From contig NZ_CP054932.1 in the NCBI RefSeq assembly GCF_013364275.1, forward strand, positions 6,138,001-6,202,000: 64,000 nt of DNA, read 5' to 3'. Source of the stretch: Actinomadura sp. NAK00032 (GTDB lineage: Bacteria; Actinomycetota; Actinomycetes; Streptosporangiales; Streptosporangiaceae). Below the pieces are notes generated by a model. That model ran no database searches and was not told the DNA's origin. It saw only the letters and a list, made by a program, of their open reading frames with translations. Both the position numbers and the translations under genes were made by a program. Of this stretch, positions 795-14,678 are shown one piece after another. Positions within the stretch are counted from its first letter, which is position 1. Each line of letters opens with the position of its first letter.

Positions 795-2006
795 GTGTCC
801 CCCACCTCCGAGAACGCGGCGGCCAGCCTGGACGACGTCCTGGTCGGCGAGGCCGTGCTGGGCGTGTACCGGCAGATGTTCGCGGCGCTGGCCCGCGACA
901 GCGGCGCGGTCGTCGACGACCCGGAGCTGGTCGACGTCGCCGAGACGCTGCTCGCCGCGTTCGCCGACGCGGGCGAGGACGGGCTGAGCCGCGAGCAGAT
1001 GCGGTACGTGTGCCGCCGCTACCCGCCGGAGGTGTTCGAGAACCGGCTGCGGGTGCTGAAGGGGCTCGGGGCGGTCCGGGAGGTGTTCCCGAAGCCGAAC
1101 CAGCTGCGCTACCGGGCGTCGTTCACCAGCGTGGTCGGGCTGATGTTCGTCCGCCGCATGATGCTGGACGGCGGGCAGAGCGAGATGCACCGGCTGCTCG
1201 CGCTGGAGCAGCTCAACGTGGCCGACCCCCGGATGACGCCCGAGCAGGCGCGGGACGGCGCGGACGGGCTCTCGCGCGCGTTCCGGCTGTGGAGCGTCGA
1301 GCTGGTGACCCTCACCAACGGCACGATCGAGGAACTGCGCGAGCAGGCGCCGAAGCTGTGGGGCACCGAGGAGATCCTGCTGCGCGCCGAGCGGCTGCAC
1401 GGCGCGATCCTGCGGCGGTGGCCGCAGCTCGACCGCACGTGCACCGACCTGCGCGCCGCCATCTACGCCTACGGCGACGCGTCCCGCCGCGCCGCCGCGC
1501 GCCTGTCGGACTCGGCGGGCACCACCCGCAACCTCACCCTGCTGCCGCCGGAGACGTGGCGGACGTTCACGCGCACGGCGTCCCGGGAGGAGCTCGCCGC
1601 CGTCCTGGACGGGTTCGTGTTCGACGCCCCGGCGCCCTGGCACGAGCCGGCCGCGGTGGTGGCGGCCGTGGAGGACGGCCCGCGCGCCGCGCCGCCGCGC
1701 CCGGCGCCGCCCCGCCCGTCCGTGCCCGACTCGGGGCTGTCGGGCGACACCGGCGCGGACACCGAGGCGGTGGAGCGGCTCCGCGACGTCGCCGAGCAGA
1801 TCCTGCGCGGCCGGGACCGGGTCGCGGTCGAGGACGTCCTCGACCGCGACTGGGCGGCGGCCCGCCGCATGCTCGCCGACCTGGCCGCCGCGCACCAGCA
1901 TCCCGAGCTGCCCTACCGGCTCGCCTGGTCGGACGGCCTGGCCGCGCGTCCCGACGGCTCGCCGACCTGGGTGTCGCCGGGCTGGTTCGAAAGGACGGGC
2001 CGGTGA
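795..2006 (+). CDS. Kleisin-like subunit of an SMC-type complex (403 aa)
   Basis: No close family name is recognised. Residues ~60-115 (LSREQMRYVCRRY...RVLKGLGAVREVF) read as a winged helix, ~125-235 are long amphipathic helices, ~280-320 is a Pro/Ala-rich linker, and ~325-400 (DVAEQILRGRDRVAVEDVL...RRMLADL) reads as a second winged helix. An N-terminal helical/winged part, a flexible linker and a C-terminal winged part is the organisation of kleisins such as ScpA, MukF and JetA/MksF, which bridge SMC heads. It is the first of four genes coupled by 4-bp overlaps that end with an SMC-like ATPase, which supports this role. The GTG start is chosen because it abuts the candidate promoter. The structural assignment is inference from sequence and context; length is close to JetA/MukF-type proteins. 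Confidence 0.6.
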   Translation: MSPTSENAAASLDDVLVGEAVLGVYRQMFAALARDSGAVVDDPELVDVAETLLAAFADAGEDGLSREQMRYVCRRYPPEVFENRLRVLKGLGAVREVFPKPNQLRYRASFTSVVGLMFVRRMMLDGGQSEMHRLLALEQLNVADPRMTPEQARDGADGLSRAFRLWSVELVTLTNGTIEELREQAPKLWGTEEILLRAERLHGAILRRWPQLDRTCTDLRAAIYAYGDASRRAAARLSDSAGTTRNLTLLPPETWRTFTRTASREELAAVLDGFVFDAPAPWHEPAAVVAAVEDGPRAAPPRPAPPRPSVPDSGLSGDTGADTEAVERLRDVAEQILRGRDRVAVEDVLDRDWAAARRMLADLAAAHQHPELPYRLAWSDGLAARPDGSPTWVSPGWFERTGR

Positions 2007-2554
2007 CCGCCGACCGGCCGGGCGCGGGCGCCGACCCCCACGTGCTGGCCCGCGCCCGCGCGCGGCTGCTGGGCGGCCCGGCGGTCGCCGCGTCCGCCCC
2101 CGTCCCGCCGGGCGTGGTCGCCGCCGCGGACGCCGGCCGCGTGTGGCTGCTCCCCGAGTGGCCGGACGGCGCGACGCCCGCGCTGCTGGAGGAGTACGAG
2201 ACCGCCCCGATGCCGCTGGACCGCTCGGGCCAGGCCCGCCGCGTGCTGGCCGCCGCGCTGCGCTGCTGCTGGACCCGCCTCGACGACGCCCCCTGGCCGG
2301 GCTCCTCCGCGCCGGTCGCGGAGATCCTGGAGGTCTACGCGAACATGACGCGCGGCGACACCGACCTGGCGCGCCGGTGGGCCACCGGTGAGCTGCGCCG
2401 CCTGTCCGACACGGGCTGGCTGATCCTGGACGAGGCCGCCGGCACCGCCCGTCCGGGCCCCCGCACCGCCCTGTGGCCGGAGGCCTCCCTGGCCTCCCTC
2501 CGCGACCTCCTCCCCCGCCTGCCCCAGCCGGGCACTGGAGAGGGGGACGCGTGA
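2003..2554 (+). CDS. Small KITE-like winged-helix subunit 1 of the SMC operon (183 aa)
   Basis: The GTG overlaps the preceding stop (GTGA), so translation is probably coupled to the kleisin-like gene. The N-terminal third is Ala/Pro-rich (...LLGGPAVAASAPVPPGVV). The C-terminal half (VAEILEVYANMTRGDTDLAR then WATGELRRLSDTGWLILDE) looks like a winged helix, ending in a short tail. Small winged-helix proteins encoded between kleisin and SMC are typically KITE subunits (ScpB, MukE, JetB/MksE), which bind the kleisin linker. I do not recognise the family by name, so the KITE assignment rests on position, size and fold pattern. Confidence 0.5.
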   Translation: MTADRPGAGADPHVLARARARLLGGPAVAASAPVPPGVVAAADAGRVWLLPEWPDGATPALLEEYETAPMPLDRSGQARRVLAAALRCCWTRLDDAPWPGSSAPVAEILEVYANMTRGDTDLARRWATGELRRLSDTGWLILDEAAGTARPGPRTALWPEASLASLRDLLPRLPQPGTGEGDA

Positions 2555-3195
2555 GCGGGCTGTTCGAAGGGGTGCTGCGGACGTTCGACGAGCGGCGGCG
2601 GGCCGAGGTCGTGGCGGCGTACATGGCGGTCGAGCACGCGGCGGAGCCGGTGCCGGAGGTGCGGTTCGCGGCGCTGCGGGAGCCGGCGCTGCGGCGGGCG
2701 GTCGAGGAGATGCTCGCGCTGAACGGGCGGACGCTCATCCGGTCGGAGCAGACGCGCTGGATCTCCGGGTACCGGGACGAGGTCGCGGAGGCGCTCGCCG
2801 AGGACCCCGCGTGCGTCCCGGGGGTGCGGGAGCGGGCCGTGCTGACGCTGGTGCTGATCCATTCGGTGGCGATCCCGCGGGCGGCCGGGCTGCTCGCCGA
2901 CGACTCGTGGCTGTCGCCGCATCCGACGCCGATGGACGAGCTGCGCCGCCGCACCCAGCTTCCGGTCACCGAGCTGGAGGCGTCGCTGCGCCGGCTGCGG
3001 CTGGCGGGGCTGGTGGCGCAGGTGAAGGCGGGTCCGGACGAGGCCGGCGGGTTCGTGCCGGGGGCGCAGTTCCACCGGCTGACCGATGCCGCGCGCCGCC
3101 GGCTGCAGGAAGAGCTGATCTTGGCCGCCGGGCCGGACTCGCCGCTCGCCGCGGCGATCCGGGCGCGGCGGCGGGGACGGGGGGAGAGCGGATGA
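2551..3195 (+). CDS. KITE/JetB-like winged-helix subunit 2 of the SMC operon (214 aa)
   Basis: The GTG overlaps the previous stop (GTGA), and the stop overlaps the SMC start (ATGA). Residues 1-110 are helical (FDERRRAEVVAAYMAVEHAA...), and ~125-200 contain a clear winged-helix pattern (MDELRRRTQLPVTELEASLR then LRLAGLVAQVK...). Size and placement directly before the SMC gene match JetB/MksE/MukE. With the preceding gene this gives two different KITE-like proteins in one operon, as in Smc5/6 (Nse1/Nse3), whereas Wadjet and MukBEF have one. Functional assignment is inferred from context. Confidence 0.5.
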   Translation: MSGLFEGVLRTFDERRRAEVVAAYMAVEHAAEPVPEVRFAALREPALRRAVEEMLALNGRTLIRSEQTRWISGYRDEVAEALAEDPACVPGVRERAVLTLVLIHSVAIPRAAGLLADDSWLSPHPTPMDELRRRTQLPVTELEASLRRLRLAGLVAQVKAGPDEAGGFVPGAQFHRLTDAARRRLQEELILAAGPDSPLAAAIRARRRGRGESG

Positions 3196-6100
3196 CGGCC
3201 GGGACCGAACCGATGATGGCCGCGCGCGACACCGAGAACGTGGTCGGCGACCGGACGCTCGTGGCCGTGCAGGCGGTGAACATCTCGCGGCTGTCGACGC
3301 ATCCGGTGCCGACCGTGCCGGGGACGCTGATCGTGGTGGCCGGGCAGGGGCCGAAGGACTCCAACGGCGCGGGCAAGTCGTCGTTCATCGCGGCCATCAC
3401 GGCGCTGCTCGGCGACGAGCAGTGGCGGTTCGCGTCGGGCGCGCGGGCGGTCGCGGAGCTGCTGTTCAACGCGGAGCTGGCGGCGCAGGGCGACAGCCAG
3501 TGGGCGAGCGCCGACCACGGGTACATCATCGGCGTGTTCGACCACCCCGAGCCGGCGGAGGACGGTTCGGCGGTGACCGTGTGGCTGCGGGTCAACGCGG
3601 ACGCGCCGCACCTGGAGATCCGGTGGCGGCAGGGCGTGTACCTGGCGTCGGCGCCGTCCGAGGCCGACCGGGTGGCGCTCGCCGACCGGCTGTGGGCGAG
3701 CCTGCCCCGCAGCGCCGGGCGCCGCGACCTGCTCGCCAAGGACCTGACCCGCGTCCTGTACGGGGGGCAGGTCCGGTGCGTGTCGTTCCTGTCGACGTCG
3801 GTGCGGTCGAAGGTCGCGACGAACCTGCTGTCGCAGCCGCTGAACGAGATCAGCCCGGAGCGGATCTTCAGCGCGATCGCGGCGCTGACGGGGCTGGACC
3901 GGGAGCTGGAGGCCGAGCGCAGGTCCCGCGCCGAGGAGCACCGGGAGCGCGCCAAGGCGGCGGAGGCCGCCGAGCGGCTCGCCGGGTGGGAGCGGGACGC
4001 GGCGAGCCTGCTGAAGACGTTCGACCGGCACGACCGCGCGCGCGACGAGGTGGCGGCGGCGCTGCGGCACTGGCGGACGCGGCGGGCGCGGCTGCTGGTG
4101 GACGCGGCGGAGGCCGACGCCGCGCACGCGGCCGAGCAGGAGCGGCTGGGCCGGGAGGGCGCGGAGCTGGCGGAGGCGGCGAAGGCCGCGGAGCGGGAGA
4201 TCGAGCAGCTCACCGGCGGCGCGCTGGACGCGCAGGTCCAGGAGGCGCAGGCGGCGCTCGCCGAGCTGAAGGGGCAGGCCGGCAAGCTGAGCGCGGACAA
4301 GGCCGTCGCCCGGGGCCGGATGGACGACCTGCGCCGGCAGGTGTCGGCGCTTGAGGAGCGGCAGCGGGAGGCCGACGGCCGGGACGCCGACACCGCCCGC
4401 GCCGAGCTGAAGGAGGCCGAGGCGCGCCGCGACGAGGCCCAGCAGGAGTACGGGATGGCCAAGGGCGCCGTCGCGCGCGCGGAGCGCGCCCTGGCCGAGG
4501 CCGAGGCGGGGCAGAGCAGCGCCCCGGAGCAGATCCGCGCGCTGGCGGCGGGCGGCATCGCGGCGGTCGGCCTGCTGGACGCGGTCGAGCTGGCCGAGGA
4601 CGTCCGGGAGCGCTGGGAGGCCGCGCTGTGGCCGTACCGGGAGGCCGTCGTCGTCACGGCGGACGACCTGGACGGCGCCGTCGCGGCCCTCGCCGGGCTG
4701 CCCGGCTCCATGATCGTCCCGGCGGGCGGCGACGGGCTGCCGGAGGGTGTGCGCTGCGAGCAGGCGCTGGGGCGGTTCTTCGGCGCGCTCGACGGCGACG
4801 GCACCGGCACGGTCGTCATCGGCGGCTTCGCCGAGCCCGTCACCGGCCGCGTCGCCCGCGTCCAGGCGGCCCGGACGGCGCTGGAGGCCGCGGCCGGGGC
4901 GCTGGAAGGTGCGCGGCAGGCCACGGCCGACGCCGCCGCCGACGTGGCGCTCGCCGACCGTCGGCTGAGCGGCGCGCGCGCGGCGGAGGAGCTGGACGAC
5001 GTCCGCGAGCGCATGGCGGAGCTGCGGGAGGGCCTTGAGGAGCTGGCGGGCGGGGAGGCGCGGCTGGGCCCGCGGCTCGGGTCGGCGGAGCAGACCCTCA
5101 GGCGGCTCCAGGCGAAGGCCGACACGCGCGCGCTGGAGATCGACCGGCTGCGGGGGCGCAAGGAGGCCCGGGAGAGGGAGCGCGGCGGGATCCGCCGGGC
5201 GTCGTCCGAGCTGGCCGAAAAGCGCGCCGCGCTCGGCCTGGACGCCCTGGAGAAGGACTGGGGCGGCTCCCGCGACGCCGCCGCCGAATGGCTGTCGGGC
5301 CTGGACGAGGACGAGGCCACCTGGACGCCCGCCGAGTGGTGGCACACCGCCGAGAAGCACCTGTCGGAGGCGCTGCGCCGCGTGTTCCCGGACGGGCCGT
5401 CCGACGAGGACATGCCGGAGGAGATCCGGTTCCTGCTGCGCGAGCGCGCCGAGGGCGAGGGCCGCCGCACCGACCGCGAGCAGGCCACGTTCGCCCGCCT
5501 CGCGCAGGCCCTTGAGGGGCATCTGCGCAGGCAGGAGGACTACGAGCGGCACCAGCGGCGGCAGATCGAGGTGCAGCTGTCGGCACGCCGCGCCGACCTG
5601 GACAAGGCGCAGAAGGGCGCGACGGAGGCGGCGGGCGCCGCGGAGGCGCACCGCACCGCGCTGACCGCCGCGATCCGCACCCGGCTCCAGCGGGTCGCGG
5701 AGGAGTTCGAGAAGCTGGACGTCGCCTACGGCGGCTACGGCGCGACGCTGGAGTTCCCGACGCCGGAGCAGCCGGGCGACCCGGAGCAGGAGTGGCGGTG
5801 GCGGGTCACGCCGAAGTGGCGCCGCTCGGACGGGCAGCGGTACGTCCCCTACAACCGGCGCGCCAACACCGCGCTGATGGACGAGAAGGCCGTCAAGCTG
5901 GTGTGCGCGGCGGCGCTCGCCAGCTCCGGCGGCGGGCGGCTCTGCCTGGTCCTGGACGAGCTGGGCCGCAACCTGGGCAAGGAGCACCGCAAGGAGGCCG
6001 TCGCGCTGTTCCGCAAGATCGGCGAGACGCACGGCATCACGGTCATCGGCGCGCTGCAGGACGACATGGAGCCGTACGCGATCGACGCGTGCGGCCAGTA

Positions 6101-6266
6101 CGTGAAGCTGCGCCGCTCGTCCGACACGATGCCCTACAACGAGCCGCCGGTCGTCGTCGGCTACGACGAGCACGAGCCCCGCGTCCGGATGCTCGCCGAC
6201 CAGATCACCGCCTCCCGCGCCGTGCCCGCGCCAGCGCCCGTGCCCGACGAGCGGAAAAGCGGGTGA
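3192..6266 (+). CDS. SMC/Rad50-like coiled-coil ATPase (1024 aa)
   Basis: Walker A is at residues ~53-64 (GPKDSNGAGKSS). Long coiled-coil arms rich in Glu/Ala/Arg run ~240-440 and ~555-880. Between them, ~450-550 is a globular hinge-like segment (AAVGLLDAVELAEDVRERW...). The C-terminal head has RRANTALMDEKAVKLVCAAA in the place of the ABC signature, and Walker B plus catalytic Glu (RLCLVLDELGRN, ~916-927). The order head-coil-hinge-coil-head is that of SMC proteins. Such ATPases hold or extrude DNA loops; relatives MukB, MksB and JetC act in chromosome organisation or plasmid restriction. The ATG overlaps the preceding TGA. Length is near JetC/MksB and shorter than MukB. The ATPase call is firm; the biological role is not known. 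Confidence 0.85.
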   Translation: MTAGTEPMMAARDTENVVGDRTLVAVQAVNISRLSTHPVPTVPGTLIVVAGQGPKDSNGAGKSSFIAAITALLGDEQWRFASGARAVAELLFNAELAAQGDSQWASADHGYIIGVFDHPEPAEDGSAVTVWLRVNADAPHLEIRWRQGVYLASAPSEADRVALADRLWASLPRSAGRRDLLAKDLTRVLYGGQVRCVSFLSTSVRSKVATNLLSQPLNEISPERIFSAIAALTGLDRELEAERRSRAEEHRERAKAAEAAERLAGWERDAASLLKTFDRHDRARDEVAAALRHWRTRRARLLVDAAEADAAHAAEQERLGREGAELAEAAKAAEREIEQLTGGALDAQVQEAQAALAELKGQAGKLSADKAVARGRMDDLRRQVSALEERQREADGRDADTARAELKEAEARRDEAQQEYGMAKGAVARAERALAEAEAGQSSAPEQIRALAAGGIAAVGLLDAVELAEDVRERWEAALWPYREAVVVTADDLDGAVAALAGLPGSMIVPAGGDGLPEGVRCEQALGRFFGALDGDGTGTVVIGGFAEPVTGRVARVQAARTALEAAAGALEGARQATADAAADVALADRRLSGARAAEELDDVRERMAELREGLEELAGGEARLGPRLGSAEQTLRRLQAKADTRALEIDRLRGRKEARERERGGIRRASSELAEKRAALGLDALEKDWGGSRDAAAEWLSGLDEDEATWTPAEWWHTAEKHLSEALRRVFPDGPSDEDMPEEIRFLLRERAEGEGRRTDREQATFARLAQALEGHLRRQEDYERHQRRQIEVQLSARRADLDKAQKGATEAAGAAEAHRTALTAAIRTRLQRVAEEFEKLDVAYGGYGATLEFPTPEQPGDPEQEWRWRVTPKWRRSDGQRYVPYNRRANTALMDEKAVKLVCAAALASSGGGRLCLVLDELGRNLGKEHRKEAVALFRKIGETHGITVIGALQDDMEPYAIDACGQYVKLRRSSDTMPYNEPPVVVGYDEHEPRVRMLADQITASRAVPAPAPVPDERKSG

Positions 6267-6299: not shown

Positions 6300-9200
6300 A
6301 TGCGCGCCGATGACCTGCTCGCCGAGATCGAGCCCCTCCCGTACCGCGCCCGCGTCCGCCGCCTGGCGGCGCTGCGGGCCTCCGCAGGCGCGCCGGAGCT
6401 CGCCGCGCTGCTGGCCGAGCTGGGCGGGCGCGGCCACTACGAGCGGGCGGTCGCGCTGTCCATCGCGTCCGCCGTGCGGGACGAGGCGTCCCTCGCCCAC
6501 CTGGTCGCGGCGGCCGGCGACCCGGACGCGGTGCTCGCGCTGCGGGCGACCCGGCTGGCGGTACGGTACGCGACCGCGCCGGGACCGCTCGCCGAGCGGC
6601 TCCCGGACGCCCCGCAGGCGGTCAGGTCCGCGACGTACCGGGCGGTGCGCCGGCACCGCCGCGCGGACCTCGCGGACGCGCTCATCGGACCGGTCCTGGA
6701 GCGGTGGGGCGTGGACGAGGCCGCCGCGCTGCTGCCCGCCTGCACCCCGGAGCGCGCGGCCGAGCGGCTCGGGCCGCTCGCGCACGCCGTCCCGAACCGG
6801 CACACGCTGGGCGGCGCCCACCCCGAGGCGTTCCTGGACCACGCCGAACGCAGCCTCGCCGAGCTGACGCCGGGCGCGCGCTCCACCTGGTGGCAGTGGG
6901 ACGGGCCGGGCGTCGCGGCGGCGGTGCGGCACGATCCCGGGCGGGTGCTCGGCCTGCTGGAGGACTACTGGCACGCGGGCGGGCTGCCGTACGCGCTCCG
7001 CCCGCGGATCGGCGCGCTGCTGGAGGCCGAGCCGGAGCGGACGCTGCGGCTGCTGCTGGCGGACGGCGCCCGGACGATGCTGGTCTCGCTGATCCGGCGG
7101 CGCTCGATGCGGGACCGGCTCGCTCGCGCCGGCGGGGACGGGCTCGCCGCCGTCGCGCGCGCCGTCCGGGAGGACGGGCCCGCGCTGCGGCTGCTGCTGA
7201 CGGCGGTGCCGCCGGCGCGGCGCGGCGCCCTGTTCGACGCGGCGATGGACGGCGTCGACCTGGCGGCGCGCGAACTCGAGGACGCGCTGATGGACGTCCT
7301 GCCGCGCGCCGTGCGGGTCCGCGAGGCGCGGCGGATGCTGGGCCTGCGCGCTTTCGCCGAGCACCCGCAGCGGGTGCAGGCCATGTCGGCCTACCTGCCG
7401 TTCGAGGAGGCCCGGCCCGTCCTGGAGGAGCTGACCCGGCGGCCCGGCGCCGACGACCGCGCGGCCGGGTACGCGCTGCTCGCCGCGTGCGCCGGACGCG
7501 AGCGCGACCCGGCCGTCCTGTCCGCGCTGCTGGAGTCCCTCGGACGGCTGCGCAACGAGCAGGAGCCGGTGCGGGTCGCCGCGCTGCGCGCGCTGGCGGC
7601 GGTCCCCGGCGCGGCGCTGGGGGCCGAGCACGCGCCGGCCGTCGAGCGGCTCGCCGAGGACGCGCTGAACGCCCGCGACTGCTCGAACGCGACGCGCATG
7701 ACGCTCGTCCAGCTCGGCACCGCGTTCTTCAGGCAGGGCGCGATCCGCGACGACGCCGAGCTGACGGTGACCGGGATCGGTTTGCTGGGGCGCGTCATCG
7801 GCAGCTCCTCCCCCGTCCCGCTCGGCCGGCTGGACCGCGTGCTGCGGCGCGGGCAGGAGCACCGGCTCGTCGAGTGGCTCGCCCCGCTGCTCGACGAGGG
7901 CGCGCGCCGCGACGACCACGGGCTCGCGCTGATGCTCGTCCGGGCGCTCGGGCGCCGCGCCCACGGCGTCCCGGCGCTCCAGGACGCGCTGGAGAAGGCC
8001 GTCGGCGCCCGCGACGACGGCGTGATCCGCGCGGCCGTCGCCCACTGGCTGGAGCCGCCCGCGACGCGCGGCGAGCGGGTGGAGCGCGTCGTCGCCGGTG
8101 ACCCGTCCACGGTCGGGCTCCCGCCGGTGCTCGCCGCGATCGCGGCGGAGCGGACCGACCTGCTGCACCTCGTCCTGTCGGAGTCCACGCCCGAGGGGCG
8201 GTTCCGGCGCGGCGACGTCACCTACGTCCCGTGGATGGAGCCGCGCTGGACGCGCGGGTGGACGGCCCGGCAGCACGCCGCCTACCTGCGCCTCCTCGAC
8301 CGGGTCGCGGGCGACGCGCGGCTCCCCGACGCCGACCGGGCCCGCGCCGTGGCGGCCATCGCGCAGGTCCCGGGGGTGGACGCCGCCCGGCTCCGCCCGT
8401 ACCTGGCGTCCGGCGACGCGCGCCTGCGCCGGGCCGCGCTGACCGCCGCGCCCTGGACCGCCCGCCCGCAGGACGTCCTGCCCGACCTGCTCGCGCACGC
8501 CTCGTCCGACGACGCGCACGTGGCCGTCTACGCGGCGGGGCGCGCGGCGCGGTTCGTCCGGCCGCCGGCGCTGGCGGCGCTGCTGCGCCCCGTCCTGGCC
8601 GGCGGCAAGATCACCGCGCGGAAGGAGGCGCTGCGGATCCTGCTGCGCACCCGCGCGCCGGAGGCGATGGACGTCGTCGCCGCCGCGTGGGACGACCCCG
8701 GCCAGCACCGGGACGTGCGCGCGGCGATCGCGTCCGCCGTCCGGGCGCACATGTCCGACCCGGTCGCCCGGCGGATCCTCGGGGAGGCGGCGGGCGGGCC
8801 GCGCGACCTCGCCCGCCAGGTGCTCGGCGCGTGGCCGCACGAGATCGAGAACGCGTTCCGCGCCGACTACGCCCGGCTCGTCGTGCGGGTGGCGCGCTCC
8901 CCCGACCCGGAGGCGTCCGACGCGGCGCTGACGGCGCTGGGCCGGTGGGCGCAGTGGGCACCGGAGATCCCGGCGCGGCTGGCGGCCGTCCTCACCGACC
9001 TCGGTGAGACGCGCCGCTGGCGCACCGCGCTGTTCACGCTCGTCGGCTGCGCGGTGGGCGGCACCGGGGCGGGCGCGCTCGCGGACGCCGCCGCGACGCT
9101 GGCCGGCGCCGGGGACGCCGCGAACGCCGAGCCCGAGCGGGACCTCCCGGCGGCGCAGCGGCTGGCGGCACTGGCCGACGCGCTGCGGCGCGCCGCCGCG

Positions 9201-9611
9201 AACCGCCGCGACAGTGCCGAACCCGTCCTGCGGGCGGTCCTGGAGCGGCTTCCCGCGCAGCTCGCGCGGGAGCTGGCGGCCGCGACCCTGCGCTGGGACG
9301 GCCCGGCCGTGGACGCGCTCGCCGACGCCTGCGCGGGCGCCTCGGTCCTCGCCGTCCAGCGGGTGGCCGACGCCCTCGCGGACGGACCGCGCGGCGCGCT
9401 CCCCGAGCCCGCCGAGCTGCGCCCGCACGCGGAGCGGCTCGCCGGGCGCGGCGACCCGGCGGGCGGCCTGTTCGCGTGCGCGCTCGCCGGCCGGCACGGC
9501 CCGCGCGCCGGCTGGCCGCCCGAATGGCGGGACGTCCTGCGCGCCCTGCGCGCGCATCCGGACCCCGACACGGCGTTCACCGCGCGTGGCATCCTCGTGT
9601 CGAAAGAGTGA
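6300..9611 (+). CDS. Large HEAT/alpha-solenoid repeat protein (1103 aa)
   Basis: The whole length is Ala/Leu/Arg-rich antiparallel helix pairs with recurrent HEAT-like spacing (for example RLRRAALTAAPWTARPQDVL, then HVAVYAAGRAARFVRPPALA). No catalytic motif, signal peptide or membrane segment is visible. It starts 34 bp after the SMC gene on the same strand, so it probably belongs to the same operon. In condensin and cohesin, HEAT proteins (HAWKs) bind the kleisin; bacterial SMC complexes normally use only KITE proteins. It sits where Wadjet operons carry the JetD nuclease. Possible roles are a scaffold or DNA/protein binder of the complex, or a sensor. Weak similarity to other bacterial helical-repeat proteins cannot be excluded. 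Confidence 0.6.
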   Translation: MRADDLLAEIEPLPYRARVRRLAALRASAGAPELAALLAELGGRGHYERAVALSIASAVRDEASLAHLVAAAGDPDAVLALRATRLAVRYATAPGPLAERLPDAPQAVRSATYRAVRRHRRADLADALIGPVLERWGVDEAAALLPACTPERAAERLGPLAHAVPNRHTLGGAHPEAFLDHAERSLAELTPGARSTWWQWDGPGVAAAVRHDPGRVLGLLEDYWHAGGLPYALRPRIGALLEAEPERTLRLLLADGARTMLVSLIRRRSMRDRLARAGGDGLAAVARAVREDGPALRLLLTAVPPARRGALFDAAMDGVDLAARELEDALMDVLPRAVRVREARRMLGLRAFAEHPQRVQAMSAYLPFEEARPVLEELTRRPGADDRAAGYALLAACAGRERDPAVLSALLESLGRLRNEQEPVRVAALRALAAVPGAALGAEHAPAVERLAEDALNARDCSNATRMTLVQLGTAFFRQGAIRDDAELTVTGIGLLGRVIGSSSPVPLGRLDRVLRRGQEHRLVEWLAPLLDEGARRDDHGLALMLVRALGRRAHGVPALQDALEKAVGARDDGVIRAAVAHWLEPPATRGERVERVVAGDPSTVGLPPVLAAIAAERTDLLHLVLSESTPEGRFRRGDVTYVPWMEPRWTRGWTARQHAAYLRLLDRVAGDARLPDADRARAVAAIAQVPGVDAARLRPYLASGDARLRRAALTAAPWTARPQDVLPDLLAHASSDDAHVAVYAAGRAARFVRPPALAALLRPVLAGGKITARKEALRILLRTRAPEAMDVVAAAWDDPGQHRDVRAAIASAVRAHMSDPVARRILGEAAGGPRDLARQVLGAWPHEIENAFRADYARLVVRVARSPDPEASDAALTALGRWAQWAPEIPARLAAVLTDLGETRRWRTALFTLVGCAVGGTGAGALADAAATLAGAGDAANAEPERDLPAAQRLAALADALRRAAANRRDSAEPVLRAVLERLPAQLARELAAATLRWDGPAVDALADACAGASVLAVQRVADALADGPRGALPEPAELRPHAERLAGRGDPAGGLFACALAGRHGPRAGWPPEWRDVLRALRAHPDPDTAFTARGILVSKE

Positions 9612-9680
9612 CCAACCATCCCCTGTTCCGCCGCGTCACATGACTGGAACGATCTGGGACGGACTGGAAAGAGGTGCCCC

Positions 9681-11375
9681 GTGGCGCAGTGGCGCGTTTC
9701 GGAGTTCGACGAGGTGCGCGAGCTCGGCCGCGGGGCGCAGGGCCGGGTGGCGCTGGCCCGGCACGCCCGGACCGGAACCCCCGTCGCGATCAAGTACCTG
9801 CCCGCCGACGCCGACCCGGCCGCCAAGGACGCCTTCCGGCAGGAGGCGCGGATGCTCGGCCGGGTCGACGACCCGCACGTGGCGCGGCTCTACCGGCTCG
9901 TGGAGCACGAGCACGGCACGGCGCTCATCATGGAGGCGGTCGAGGGCGTCTCGCTGAAGCGGGTGCTCGCCGAGCACGGCGCCCTCGGGCCGGAGGCGGC
10001 CCTGCTGGTGCTGAAGGGGTCGCTGAGCGGGCTGGCCGCCGCGCACGCGGCCGGGGTCGTCCACCGCGACTACAAGCCCGCCAACGTCGTCGTCCGCGCG
10101 GACGGCCTCAGCAAGCTCATCGACTTCGGCATCGCCGTGTGGACGGGCGAGGGCGACCGGTCCGGCACCCCGGTCTACATGGCGCCCGAGCAGTGGCGCG
10201 GCGAGCCCGCCACCCCCGCCACCGACGTCTACGCCGCGACCTGCGTCTTCTACGAGTGCGTGACCGGCGAGCGGCCCTACCGCGCCGGCGACCGGATGGC
10301 GCTGATGGGCCAGCACGCCGCCGCGCCCGTCCCGGCGGACGACGTCCCCGAGCCGCTGCGCACGCTCGTGCTCCAGGGGATGGCCAAGGACCCCGCCTAC
10401 CGGCCGCCGGGCGCGGCGCAGTTCGTGGCCGAACTCGACCGCATCGCCGTCGAGTCCTACGGGCGGGACTGGGAGCAGCGCGGCGTGCGCGCCCTCGCCG
10501 TCGCCGCGGCCGCCCTCGCCGCCCTGTTCCCGCTCGCCGCCGCCGGGCTGGTCCCGGCGGGAGCGGGCGCGGCCACCGCCGGGGCGGCGGGCGCGGGCAC
10601 GGCCGGAGCGGCCGGGACGGCGGGGGCCGGGGCGGGCGGCGCGGCGTCCGGGTCGGGCGGCCTCCTGTCCGCGGTCGGCGGCAAGGCGGGCGTCGCGATC
10701 GCGGGCGCCGCGATCGCCGGCAGCGCCGCCGCCGGTGTCGGCGTCTACGCCGCGACGCGTCCCGACCGCGACGGCACCGCCGTCGCGGCCACTCCGTCGC
10801 CGTCCGGGCAGCGGATGTCGTTCGGCGGGTTCTCGGTCACGGTCCCGGTGGGATGGCGGCGCACCGAGCTGACGAACGTGCCGGGCAGGCCGCGGGGCAA
10901 CTACTGGGTGAGCACCCCCGGCGCGTGCTCCCCGCAGACGATCGGGGCTCCCCCGCCCGAGGGGCGCGACGCCCGGATCTACCAGAACAACTGCCCCGGA
11001 TTCCTGGTGATCGCGGAGCCCTGGCACAACGACGCGACGACCGGTTGGAGAGGGTTCACTTTGAACGGCCCCTGGGGGCCGGAGACCGAGGCGTTCCGCA
11101 CCTGCCCGCACCGGGGCGACCTCAACGGCATCGGCACCGAGGCCGACCGCGAGCGGCCCGCCCGCTCCGCGACCGCCGCCGTCGGGACGCGGCAGGCTCA
11201 GTACCGCGAATGGCGCCTCAGCTGCGTCTTCATGACCGGCGCCAGGCAGTTCCAGCCCGCCGGGCCGTCCTACGTCCAGCGGTACTGGTACCTGGCGCAG
11301 CCCAGGCTCCTCATCCTGGACGAGTGGAACACCCCGGGCCTCGACAAGATCCTCGCGAAGGCGGAGTGGGCCTGA
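9681..11375 (+). CDS. Membrane Ser/Thr protein kinase with extracytoplasmic domain (564 aa)
   Basis: Hanks-type kinase domain at residues ~8-262: Gly loop GRGAQG, lysine in VAIKYLP, catalytic HRDYKPANV, DFG (IDFGIAV) and APE (YMAPEQW). An Ala/Gly-rich low-complexity stretch and hydrophobic segments (~275-360) form the membrane part. The C-terminal ~200 residues (from MSFGGFSVTVPVGWRR) would lie outside the cell and contain four or more Cys; it is not a PASTA domain and I do not recognise it. The GTG start follows GAAAGAGG. It lies 69 bp downstream of the HEAT gene on the same strand, so it could be read through with the SMC operon, but no shared function is evident. Confidence 0.85.
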   Translation: MAQWRVSEFDEVRELGRGAQGRVALARHARTGTPVAIKYLPADADPAAKDAFRQEARMLGRVDDPHVARLYRLVEHEHGTALIMEAVEGVSLKRVLAEHGALGPEAALLVLKGSLSGLAAAHAAGVVHRDYKPANVVVRADGLSKLIDFGIAVWTGEGDRSGTPVYMAPEQWRGEPATPATDVYAATCVFYECVTGERPYRAGDRMALMGQHAAAPVPADDVPEPLRTLVLQGMAKDPAYRPPGAAQFVAELDRIAVESYGRDWEQRGVRALAVAAAALAALFPLAAAGLVPAGAGAATAGAAGAGTAGAAGTAGAGAGGAASGSGGLLSAVGGKAGVAIAGAAIAGSAAAGVGVYAATRPDRDGTAVAATPSPSGQRMSFGGFSVTVPVGWRRTELTNVPGRPRGNYWVSTPGACSPQTIGAPPPEGRDARIYQNNCPGFLVIAEPWHNDATTGWRGFTLNGPWGPETEAFRTCPHRGDLNGIGTEADRERPARSATAAVGTRQAQYREWRLSCVFMTGARQFQPAGPSYVQRYWYLAQPRLLILDEWNTPGLDKILAKAEWA

Positions 11376-11472: not shown

Positions 11473-12307
11473 CCGCGTGCCGGCGGACGACGCCGGCCGC
11501 CAGCTCCGCGCCCGCGAACGCGCCCGCGCGGACGCGCCCGGCGAACGTGCGGGCGACGATCCGGTCGGTCAGCGCGGGCAGGTGCCGGGCGAGGAAGAAC
11601 TCGACGGCGCCGCGCCGGGTCGTCGTCACGTCCCGGCGGGGGCGGCGGGCCAGGGCGGCACGCAGCACCGCGTCCACCACCCCGTCCAGCGGCTCGTAGA
11701 CGCTGACGCCCTCAAGGGACAGTCCGGCGGCGGCCGTCGAGTCGTGGATCGGGCTGCGGACCGCCGACGGGTACACGCACGTCACGCCGACATGGGTGCC
11801 GATCTCCATGCGCAGCGCGTCCGCGTAGGCGACGAGCGCCCGCTTGGACGCGCCGTACGCGGCGGCCAGGGGCAGCTGCATGACGGCCATCCGGGACGAC
11901 AGCATGACGACGCGCCCCCGCGACTCGACGAGGGCGTCCACGCACGCCGACGTCACCCGCCAGGCGCCGAGCAGGTTGATGTCGAGCTGGCGGCGGACCT
12001 CCTCGCCGGGCGGCAGCTCGGCCGGGGCGGGCCCGCCGATCCCGGCGTTGTTGATCAGCAGGTCGAGGCGGCCGAGCCGCTCGATCGCCGCGGCCACGGC
12101 GGCGGGCACCGCGTCGTCGTCGGTGATGTCGCAGGCGAGGACGTCGACGGGGTCGTCCGGCCGGGGCGCGAGGTCCAGGCCGACGACGCGGGCGCCGCCG
12201 CCGCTCAGCCGGGCGCAGATCGCGCGGCCGAACGTGCCGGACGCGCCGGTCACGAGGACCCGCAGGCCGCGCGGGTCGCGGCCGCCGGACGGGCGGGGTG
12301 TGCTCAT
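11462..12307 (-). CDS. Short-chain dehydrogenase/reductase (281 aa)
   Basis: Classical SDR with the NAD(P) motif TGASGTFG (residues ~20-27), the NNAG motif (INNAGIGG), the catalytic Ser in VVMLSSRMAV and the YGASK motif carrying Tyr and Lys. The C-terminal extension (EFFLARHLPALTDRIV) is typical of SDRs annotated near flavin monooxygenases. The ATG overlaps the stop of the upstream monooxygenase (ATGA), so the two are translationally coupled and may act in sequence on a ketone/alcohol substrate. The substrate is unknown. If the monooxygenase is dead or lacks its promoter, as it appears, expression of this gene may also be impaired. Confidence 0.85.
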   Translation of the reverse strand: MSTPRPSGGRDPRGLRVLVTGASGTFGRAICARLSGGGARVVGLDLAPRPDDPVDVLACDITDDDAVPAAVAAAIERLGRLDLLINNAGIGGPAPAELPPGEEVRRQLDINLLGAWRVTSACVDALVESRGRVVMLSSRMAVMQLPLAAAYGASKRALVAYADALRMEIGTHVGVTCVYPSAVRSPIHDSTAAAGLSLEGVSVYEPLDGVVDAVLRAALARRPRRDVTTTRRGAVEFFLARHLPALTDRIVARTFAGRVRAGAFAGAELAAGVVRRHAGRR

Positions 12308-13616
12308 GCGGATGTCTCCTCGCGGTGCGCCGGGGTGAACGGCCGGGCCTCGCCCCGCGCGAGCCGGGCCCGGCCGGCCTTCAGCTCGCGGGGCAGCTCG
12401 GCCACGTACTGGTCGAAGTCGACGCGCATCATGGGGCGCCGGTCGCCCCACCGCTCGGTCGCGGCGCGCAGGGCGCGGGCGACCGCGCGCCGCCGCCGCG
12501 CCGGGGGCGGCGGCGCGTAGCCGCCGGCGAAGTAGGCCGCCGCCAGCTTGGCCTGGGCCTCCACGATCGGCAGCGCCGCGCCCGTGGACTGCATCAGCCC
12601 GACGAAGGCCAGGCCGGGCTCGTCCAGGTGGAAGACGCGCTGGTAGAGCGGGAGCCGCTCGGGGTCGGCGCCCACCAGGCCGCGGGACAGGAACGGGATG
12701 CTCACCCGGTAGCCGGTCGCCCAGACGACCACGTCGACGGGGTCGGCGGTGCCGTCGGTGAACACGACCTCGTCCCCGTCGAAGCGGGCGACGCCGGGCC
12801 GCGGCGCCACCTCGCCGTGGGTCAGGCGGTGCAGGATCGTGTCGCTGATCGTGGGGTGGTTCTGGAACAGCCCGCCCGCCGGGGCGGGGAGTCCGTAGTC
12901 CTGCGGGCGGCCGACAGCGAGCCGCAGCATCGCCTCGGCGACGCGCTGCCTGACCCGCCACGGCAGCGCGGCGAGGGCGCCGCCGGTCGCGTCGGACGGC
13001 CGTCCGAACAGGTACTTGGGGACGATGTGGACGCCGCGCCGCGCCGCCAGCAGCACCGGGCCGGCGGCGACGTGCGAGGCGTCCACGGCGATGTCCATGG
13101 CCGAGTTCCCCATGCCGACGACGAGGACGCGCCTGCCGCGGAACTGCTCGGCGTCGCGGTAGGCGTGCGCGTGCATCTGGACGCCGGTGAACTCGCCGGG
13201 CGGCGCGGAGTCGGGCCACCGGGGGTCCCAGTTGTGGCCGTTGGCGACCACGACGGCGTCGTACCGGGCGGTGTCGCCGGCCTCGGTGGTCACCGCCCAG
13301 GGGCCGTCCGCGCCGTCCCGCTCCACGGACGCGACGGCGCTGCCGAAGCGGATGTGCGGGACGATCCCGAAGCGCTCCGCGTAGTCCGCGAGGTATCCGG
13401 CGACCAGGTCGGCGGACGGGTAGTCGGGCCAGTGCCGGGGCATCGGGAAGTCGGCGAACTCGGTACGGCCCTTGCTGGTGTTGAGGTGCAGGGACGCGTA
13501 GGCGGGCGAGAGACCGGCGCCGCGCGCCCACAGCCCGCCCGCGCGGCCGGCCCGCTCGTACAGCACGGCCTCCACGCCCGCGTCGCGCAGGGCCTTGCCG
13601 GTCGCGAGGCCGGCCG
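12304..13616 (-). pseudogene. Flavin-containing/Baeyer-Villiger-type monooxygenase, 5'-truncated
   Basis: The sequence from PAGLATGKALRDAGVEAVLY onward is a typical FMO-like monooxygenase, with a second Rossmann motif (VLVVGMGNSAMDIAVD) and the ATG-type motif VWATGYRVSIPF. The N-terminal beta strand and the GxGxxG FAD motif that should precede PAGL are absent: upstream codons read TAAD and then unrelated sequence. No start codon lies in frame before GTG at ~13575, which is inside the FAD domain. The reading frame meets the divergent regulator at 13616/13617 with no intergenic DNA. I therefore treat it as broken by a deletion or a misassembly. Without the FAD motif it should not be active. Confidence 0.7.
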
Positions 13617-13631
13617 GATCTGCTGCCGTCG

Positions 13632-14678
13632 GTGGTCGGCGGGGTGACGTCCGTGGTACGCGAGATGTCGGTCCTGCCGCCCGCCGACATCGCCGGGCAC
13701 ACCCGCGCGCTGCTCGCGGCCGCCACCCGCGCGATCGCGGCGCGGCGCGGGCCGACCGAGGGCGAGCTGGCGTTCGTCGCGGAGCTCGGCGTGACCCGCG
13801 CCCGGCAGGGCGTGCCGGTCGAGGCGGTGCTGAGCGCGATCCACGTCGCCGAGCGCGGGATCTGGGCGCGGGTCCGGGAGGTCGCCGCCGCCGAGGGCGT
13901 CGGCGCGGAGCTGCTGCTGGACGCCCGGGAGCTGTACGACGACTGGGCCGAGGCCGTCCGGTCCCGGCTGATCCGGGCGCACCGGGAGGCGCGGGCGCAG
14001 GCGCGGGCCGGGGCCGGGCCGGGGCGGGGCGAGCGGGACGCGGTGCTGCTGCGGCGCCTGCTGGACGGCGGCTCGGCCGCCGCGCTCGCCGCCGCCGAGG
14101 CGGGCCTGCCCGCCGGCGGCGCGCTGCGGGTGCTGGCCGCCCGCCCGTCCGGCGCCGGCCGCGAGCACCCGCCGCCCGTCCGGCCACCGGCGCTGTCCGC
14201 GCTGCTGGACGGCCTGCTGTTCGCGGTGACGGCCGCGCCGCCGGCGGGCCCGGACGGTGCGGCGGCCGGGCTCGCGGGGCCCGCCGAGGCGGAGCACCTG
14301 GCCGCCGCGCGCCGCCTGGCCGTCTCCGCGCTCGCCGCCGCCGAGGCCACCGGGCGGACCGGGGTGGTGCACGTCGCCGAGGTGGCCGTGGTCGCGGCGG
14401 CGGCCGACCGCACCGACCTCGCGTCCATCCTGCTCGACCGGTACCGGGGCGCCCGCGCGGACCTCGGCGCGAACGCCGGGCCGGTCGCCCGCGCGGTGTG
14501 CGCCTGGCTGGAGGCGGGCCGCGACGTGACCGCCGCCGCGGAGGCCCTGTTCGTGCACCCCAACACGGTACGCAACAGGGTCCAGCGGTTCACGGAGGCG
14601 ACGGGGATCGACGCGTCCGACACGTTCGGCGGCGTCAACGCCTGGTGGCTGTGCCGCGCCTGGCTCGCCCCCGCCTGA
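13632..14678 (+). CDS. PucR/CdaR-type helix-turn-helix regulator, probably N-terminally truncated
   Basis: The C-terminal ~60 residues (AEALFVHPNTVRNRVQRFTE...GGVNAWWLCRAW) are the PucR-family C-terminal HTH. The N-terminal half (ELGVTRARQGVPVEAVLSAI, then HVAERGIWARV) matches the helical sensor region of actinobacterial members. The first possible start is GTG 13632, with other starts at 13644, 13653 and ATG 13665, but coding-like sequence continues upstream to about 13617 (DLLPSVVGG...), where it hits the truncated monooxygenase. Family members usually have a few dozen more N-terminal residues. It would normally control the divergent monooxygenase/SDR pair; the shared promoter region is missing here. 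Confidence 0.7.
   Translation: MVGGVTSVVREMSVLPPADIAGHTRALLAAATRAIAARRGPTEGELAFVAELGVTRARQGVPVEAVLSAIHVAERGIWARVREVAAAEGVGAELLLDARELYDDWAEAVRSRLIRAHREARAQARAGAGPGRGERDAVLLRRLLDGGSAAALAAAEAGLPAGGALRVLAARPSGAGREHPPPVRPPALSALLDGLLFAVTAAPPAGPDGAAAGLAGPAEAEHLAAARRLAVSALAAAEATGRTGVVHVAEVAVVAAAADRTDLASILLDRYRGARADLGANAGPVARAVCAWLEAGRDVTAAAEALFVHPNTVRNRVQRFTEATGIDASDTFGGVNAWWLCRAWLAPA

Follow-up and report, generated by a model that had tools for sequence, protein, structure and literature searches.

A four-gene SMC operon of Actinomadura with a MukF-like kleisin is a candidate nuclease-less relative of Wadjet

A 64,000-nucleotide stretch of Actinomadura sp. NAK00032 (contig NZ_CP054932.1, positions 6,138,001 to 6,202,000; hereafter the window), part of a 9.43-Mb single-contig genome, contains an operon of four genes, A, B, C and SMC, which encode a kleisin-like protein, two small winged-helix proteins and an SMC-like ATPase. 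The explanation we favor, with a probability of about 60%, is that the operon encodes an SMC-kleisin-KITE complex that is a nuclease-less relative of Wadjet, the main branch of which lost the nuclease JetD and probably serves a chromosomal role. The four-gene family is uncatalogued and undescribed; no paper describing it was found in the open-access literature, which omits most subscription journals. It is a distinct actinobacterial SMC lineage, as the initial annotation of this DNA had suggested and as an operon that unites an SMC-like ATPase with a kleisin and with winged-helix proteins supports.

All four genes lie on the forward strand and each junction shares four bases: GTGA at 2003-2006 between A and B, GTGA at 2551-2554 between B and C, and ATGA at 3192-3195 between C and SMC. 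These overlaps and the positions of the open reading frames (ORFs) had already been reported in the initial annotation and agree with the window sequence. A gene-neighborhood survey found the co-occurrence of the four genes conserved: 95 of the 97 loci of at least 9 kb display the order A-B-C-SMC on a single strand, down to approximately 32% ATPase identity, the two exceptions being a contig-edge match and a fragment. Compared with five Actinomadura orthologues, the ratio of non-synonymous to synonymous substitutions (dN/dS, NG86) of A, B, C and SMC is 0.10-0.46, indicating that all four are under purifying selection. By their conserved order and these dN/dS values, the four ORFs are real genes. 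Neighborhood comparison found neither a fifth gene common to all loci nor a flanking gene common across genera.

The family libraries scanned were Pfam, NCBIfam and PADLOC. Above the cut-off only C was matched, by the winged-helix domain DprA_WH (expectation value (E) 1.1e-6). In these libraries A gave no more than noise. A stretch of B matched JetA below the threshold (E 0.46), and the ATPase had sub-threshold matches to SMC, LmuB and JetC. Since these are all sub-threshold and a sequence search of the chains in the PDB found none for the ATPase, the searched libraries do not name this protein. The JetA family PF18982 was dropped as a reference, having no match over the cut-off in 198 genomes.

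Gene A (795-2006) encodes a protein of 403 amino acids. Its AlphaFold model (P0001 with 26 relatives) consists of an N-terminal winged helix, a helical bundle, a proline-rich linker at approximately residues 270-320 and a C-terminal winged helix. The mean predicted local distance difference test score (pLDDT) is 69, with values mostly of 68-93 in the winged helices, and the start and the linker are disordered. Foldseek against the PDB returned MukF at ranks 1-6 and 8, the best being 9gm7_C (E 9.7e-5, probability 0.99). These top matches bear out the kleisin-like protein of the initial annotation, and by its predicted fold A appears to be a MukF-like kleisin with N- and C-terminal head-binding domains. 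When profiles were compared, A scored no better against JetA-II or MukF than reversed controls did.

Gene B (2003-2554, forward strand) encodes a KITE-related protein of 183 amino acids and gene C (2551-3195, forward strand) a KITE-like protein of 214 amino acids. They were modeled as the natural fusion of Streptosporangium minutum (L068:295-1473) with 33 relatives rather than as the window's own B and C. The AlphaFold model of the fusion has a mean pLDDT of 88 and a predicted template modeling score (pTM) of 0.81. Its C half displays two consecutive winged helices, its B half one winged helix and a beta-rich N-terminal stretch. Winged helices and a kleisin fold, proposed initially for the three small proteins, are thus both present in the models. 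Two distinct KITE subunits had also been proposed: C, by its DprA_WH match and the model, is indeed KITE-like, with tandem winged helices, but B shows only one clear winged helix, so that the proposal is borne out in part. Among 350,542 PDB chains, the top fold matches to the B-C model were ScpB (6juv, probability 0.99) and then chain D of 9qe0 (Wadjet-II JetABC), and the top 50 also include more ScpB chains, MukE, JetB (8dk1_E) and NSE1-MAGE-G1.

The two proteins are also homologous in part: residues 117-168 of B match the second winged helix of C by profile (E 9e-4 versus 0.49 for the reversed control, approximately 52 columns). In 56 of 170 loci they form a single ORF. On the ATPase tree the fusion amounts to two changes, once in Streptosporangiaceae and once in L175-L177; such repeated, independent fusion shows the pair behaving as a unit and suggests that the two are neighbors on the kleisin. 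Against JetB-II or MukE, the profile of B scored no higher than reversed controls.

A reading compatible with the favored one, to which we give somewhat less than an even chance, is that B and C together make up a single long KITE resembling JetB of Wadjet-II (approximately 384 amino acids), split into two genes in some lineages. 9qe0_D, a 384-amino-acid chain that is JetB by elimination (9qe0_E being JetA), is the only full-length PDB match to B and C, and the fused protein aligns with it over 402 columns; gene fusions are common, and C has a weak profile match to the JetB-II C-terminus. However, the TM-score to 9qe0_D is just 0.33, the fusion linkers are of low complexity and of very different lengths, and most lineages, whichever side of the tree they are on, have the genes unfused. 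In Nonomuraea and Streptosporangium loci such as L084, L077, L086 and L031, the B-C linker contains long insertions of low complexity, with further ones in the SMC head and hinge of L031.

In Wadjet the executing nuclease is JetD, and a Wadjet origin has been proposed for MukBEF and MksBEF (PMC10586767; PMC10123090). The ATPase tree separates a large lineage I, comprising the window, Thermomonosporaceae, Streptosporangiaceae and one further family (f21), from a sparse lineage II. The kleisin tree shows the same split; both trees are quick searches, and the branches of lineage II are flagged as long. In 8 of the 9 lineage II genomes a JetD profile revealed a JetD-type gene next to the operon, placed upstream, downstream or convergently and always adjacent. 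JetD_C was matched with E of 5.7e-17 (L175), 2.6e-14 (L176), 4.5e-16 (L172), 1.9e-14 (L027) and 5e-12 (L177), and DUF2399 with E 7.5e-9 in L180; the JetD1 models of PADLOC match the lineage II genes as well. Seven sequences align over the TOPRIM motifs, and all of them retain ENxDTF (ENVGTF in L172) and DLDAxG. The neighbor in L179 was ruled out as JetD, being an AMP-binding enzyme. In lineage I, 62 loci extend 5.5 kb or more upstream and 3 kb or more downstream of the SMC ORF; none of them contains JetD, and the window's own genome has no JetD_C match. Presence of JetD maps onto the SMC tree as one change. For A, B, C and SMC of either lineage, the JetA, JetB and JetC families of types I-III in PADLOC, Pfam and NCBIfam gave no match above noise.

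Since JetD adjoins lineage II only and executes the cleavage by Wadjet, and in view of the origin proposed for MukBEF and MksBEF, lineage II looks like a Wadjet-like defense system of a type outside PADLOC, a putative fourth kind of Wadjet. Lineage I would then be a disarmed, vertically inherited branch, the main branch having lost JetD rather than lineage II having gained it. In two genomes, L027 (G033) and L177 (G586), both lineages occur together, one JetD-free and one JetD-linked. Near the lineage II operon of L172 lies a gene for an OLD-family ATPase-TOPRIM nuclease (11934-14000), which hints at a defense island.

A scan of 84,980 species genomes recovered 241 relatives of the ATPase. The best named relatives are from Actinomadura, at 96% identity and down, and the 80 listed of the 241 belong to Actinomadura, Spirillospora, Thermomonospora, Nonomuraea, Streptosporangium, Planobispora, Planomonospora, Microtetraspora, Herbidospora, Acrocarpospora, near genera and two metagenome genomes. 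A profile search marked 118 of 250 genomes from the order as positive, all in one family (f1); f21 (14 sampled genomes) is positive in the rest of the class, and 2 other sampled genomes are in the rest of the phylum. The lineage I gene tree follows taxonomy, and inheritance of the lineage is vertical, in Streptosporangiales as well as in one further family. No relative was found in phage records, IMG/VR viral contigs or true plasmid records, the sole 'plasmid' relative being 'plasmid I' of Nonomuraea gerenzanensis, a chromosome-sized replicon of 11.85 Mb. Elsewhere in the phylum, L181 (G196:C82, 336-2347) holds a decayed-looking operon in which A is reduced to its N-terminal part and continues into the end of gene C, followed by a truncated SMC.

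The same genome also encodes canonical SMC and ScpB elsewhere and a separate Wadjet type II JetC (L211, G000:C1:2313000-2328000); in loci related to the latter, DUF2397 (JetA), DUF2398 (JetB) and DUF3323-DUF2399 (JetD) surround JetC. Since these systems are present too, the operon represents an additional SMC complex and not the housekeeping one. In the genus (49 scored genomes from G001-G035 and G489-G675), a JetD1-type nuclease, as in type I Wadjet, occurs in 2 of 35 operon-bearing genomes versus 9 of 14 operon-free ones, a near-exclusivity with Fisher p 4e-5, uncorrected for relatedness. The two complexes might be interchangeable in their task, or the genus may simply contain two clades that differ.

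This pattern, together with the Wadjet nuclease carried by the closest relatives, would fit a defense system with no nuclease of its own, in which the complex captures or condenses circular DNA that enters the cell or calls in a nuclease of the host. We consider this unlikely, as the gene tree is vertical and the context not mobile, no linked effector was found when looked for in the 62 lineage I loci, and the family is absent from the phage and plasmid collections. A chromosome-related role is favored by the vertical inheritance, the lack of a nuclease and the lack of a mobile context. Where plasmid or phage defense or chromosome work had been suggested initially, the evidence leans to a nuclease-less Wadjet relative whose history is vertical and housekeeping-like.

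The SMC-like ATPase (3192-6266, forward strand) has 1024 amino acids, arranged as an N-head at approximately residues 15-240, an arm, a hinge-like region at approximately 450-560, a second arm and a C-head at approximately 840-1000; the bounds of arms and hinge were drawn from proline and glycine content, and no structure of the ATPase was predicted. The Walker A motif is GPKDSNGAGKSS (DSNGAGKSS), and the stretch assigned to it by translation and conservation, GPKDSNGAGKSSFI, spans residues 53-66 (3348-3389). Walker B is LDELG and, with the D-loop, forms LVLDELGRNLG at residues 919-929 (5946-5978), where D922, E923, L924, L928 and G929 are invariant. Across 95-96 sequences there is no variation at D56, S57, N58, G61, K62, D922 and E923, nor, across 96, at the leucine and glycine of the D-loop NLG. 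As far as the sequence can tell, the protein has a split head with Walker A N-terminal and Walker B C-terminal, long coiled-coil arms and a hinge. The hinge-like middle gave a weak, in-register match to the canonical SMC hinge (E 0.033 versus 0.79 reversed).

The complete SMC-type ATPase claimed initially from Walker A, Walker B and a hinge-like middle therefore holds, with the correction that it has no LSGG signature. Instead of this canonical ATP-binding cassette (ABC) motif, all 96 sequences contain N-x-A in the C-head. In the window it reads N-T-A (residues 892-894, 5865-5873), with N892 and A894 invariant in the 96 sequences, and its distance to Walker B suggests that it takes the signature position. 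Q-D at 956-957 is likewise invariant in the 96 sequences and stands where the switch histidine usually is; the assignment of all these positions is our own. With the changed signature, a D-loop that reads NLG and Q-D at the switch, the head departs from the textbook SMC head.

Head profiles aligned weakly, although at the expected positions, with SMC, MukB, JetC, RecN and SbcC and showed no clear nearest family, the best score being RecN (E 6e-4, still weak). They favor no family for the placement of the ATPase, and we do not claim a cross-family phylogeny. An SMC-JetC score of E 7e-8 was set aside, as the coiled coil gave 0.003 on the reversed control. The RecN score and a signature motif unlike that of SMC proteins would fit a RecN- or Rad50-like repair protein with unrelated winged-helix regulators, but this is very improbable given that MukF matches A, that KITEs match B-C, that the lineage II neighbor is JetD and not Mre11, that the four-gene order is strict and that the hinge is in register with that of SMC.

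Several observations weigh against a nuclease-less Wadjet relative with a chromosomal role. No KITE match of the B-C model reaches a Foldseek E of 0.001 and the kleisin and KITE fold matches have low TM-scores (0.13-0.33, query-normalized), so that the KITE case for B-C rests on KITE proteins crowding the top of the list. Beyond the weak C-JetB match, A, B and C are without profile similarity to Jet or Muk proteins, and SMC and RecN are about as near to the SMC head as JetC and MukB, with no clear difference. ATP hydrolysis may be altered in a protein with so unusual a signature motif. No outgroup polarizes the JetD change, whose direction is read on an unrooted tree from the known JetD-bearing types. 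Finally, the operon is absent from 14 of the 49 scored genomes of the genus and hence dispensable; together with the near-exclusivity with type I Wadjet, this calls for caution on the chromosomal role.

If the favored explanation is correct, two copies of the 1024-amino-acid ATPase would pair through the hinge and the MukF-like kleisin A would bridge both heads, while B and C would bind the kleisin jointly as an asymmetric KITE unit. By analogy, the complex may hold and extrude DNA with ATP. Since JetD is absent, no DNA cutting would be expected of the window's lineage; the lineage I complex most likely has a part in chromosome organization or segregation, alongside the cell's canonical SMC-ScpAB.

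Comparison with known systems places the operon close to several of them. It shares a kleisin, KITE and SMC operon with Wadjet (JetABCD/MksBEFG/EptABCD, types I-III), and its lineage II relatives carry an adjacent JetD with TOPRIM motifs. In contrast to Wadjet, the window operon is without JetD, its proteins are not recognized by the JetA, JetB and JetC models, its KITE part lies in two genes and its ATPase is short with a changed signature motif. MukBEF and MksBEF, thought to derive from Wadjet through nuclease loss (PMC10586767), similarly combine a MukF-fold kleisin with an SMC complex lacking JetD, but here two KITE-type genes replace MukE and the ATPase has 1024 rather than the 1486 amino acids of MukB. 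No sequence relationship to MukB, MukE or MukF emerged, hhalign scores being near reversed controls with single E. coli targets that limit sensitivity. SMC-ScpAB has like parts, and ScpB is the top fold match of B-C, although the genome encodes its own SMC and ScpB elsewhere. Smc5/6 with Nse1-Nse3-Nse4 resembles the operon in having two different KITE-type partners, if B counts, and NSE1-MAGE-G1 is among the PDB matches; compared by parts and not by sequence, it differs in that all loci here have one SMC gene instead of two and the operon holds no SUMO ligase or RING protein.

The origin of chromosomal SMC complexes such as MukBEF from Wadjet by nuclease loss is a proposed one. Here both JetD states live in one family with four genes in the same order, which makes the nuclease-loss step testable by experiment and comparison. 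Tentatively, and with rather less confidence than in the explanation as a whole, a fourth Wadjet type with a two-subunit KITE unit and a head without the canonical ABC signature may have given rise to a nuclease-free chromosomal SMC complex in Actinomycetota. This would be an independent MukBEF-like case of defense turned housekeeping, with the armed and the disarmed branch both living. It would also mean that a large group of actinomycetes that produce antibiotics has a further SMC complex, one missed by the searched protein-family libraries, where a search would target only SMC-ScpAB and the known Wadjet types.

Downstream of the operon, 33 bases past the SMC gene, starts a gene for an alanine-rich protein of 1103 amino acids (6300-9611), HEAT-like by eye and without a family match in the library scans, followed by a Ser/Thr protein kinase gene (9681-11375). 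The former adjoins the operon in many Actinomadura and not elsewhere; the kinase gene is in Actinomadura often repeated or directly behind the SMC gene. Both (6300-11375) were rejected as parts of the complex, being absent from loci beyond Actinomadura and near relatives. HEAT proteins are kleisin partners in eukaryotic SMC complexes, which makes the position of the HEAT-like protein a curious one.
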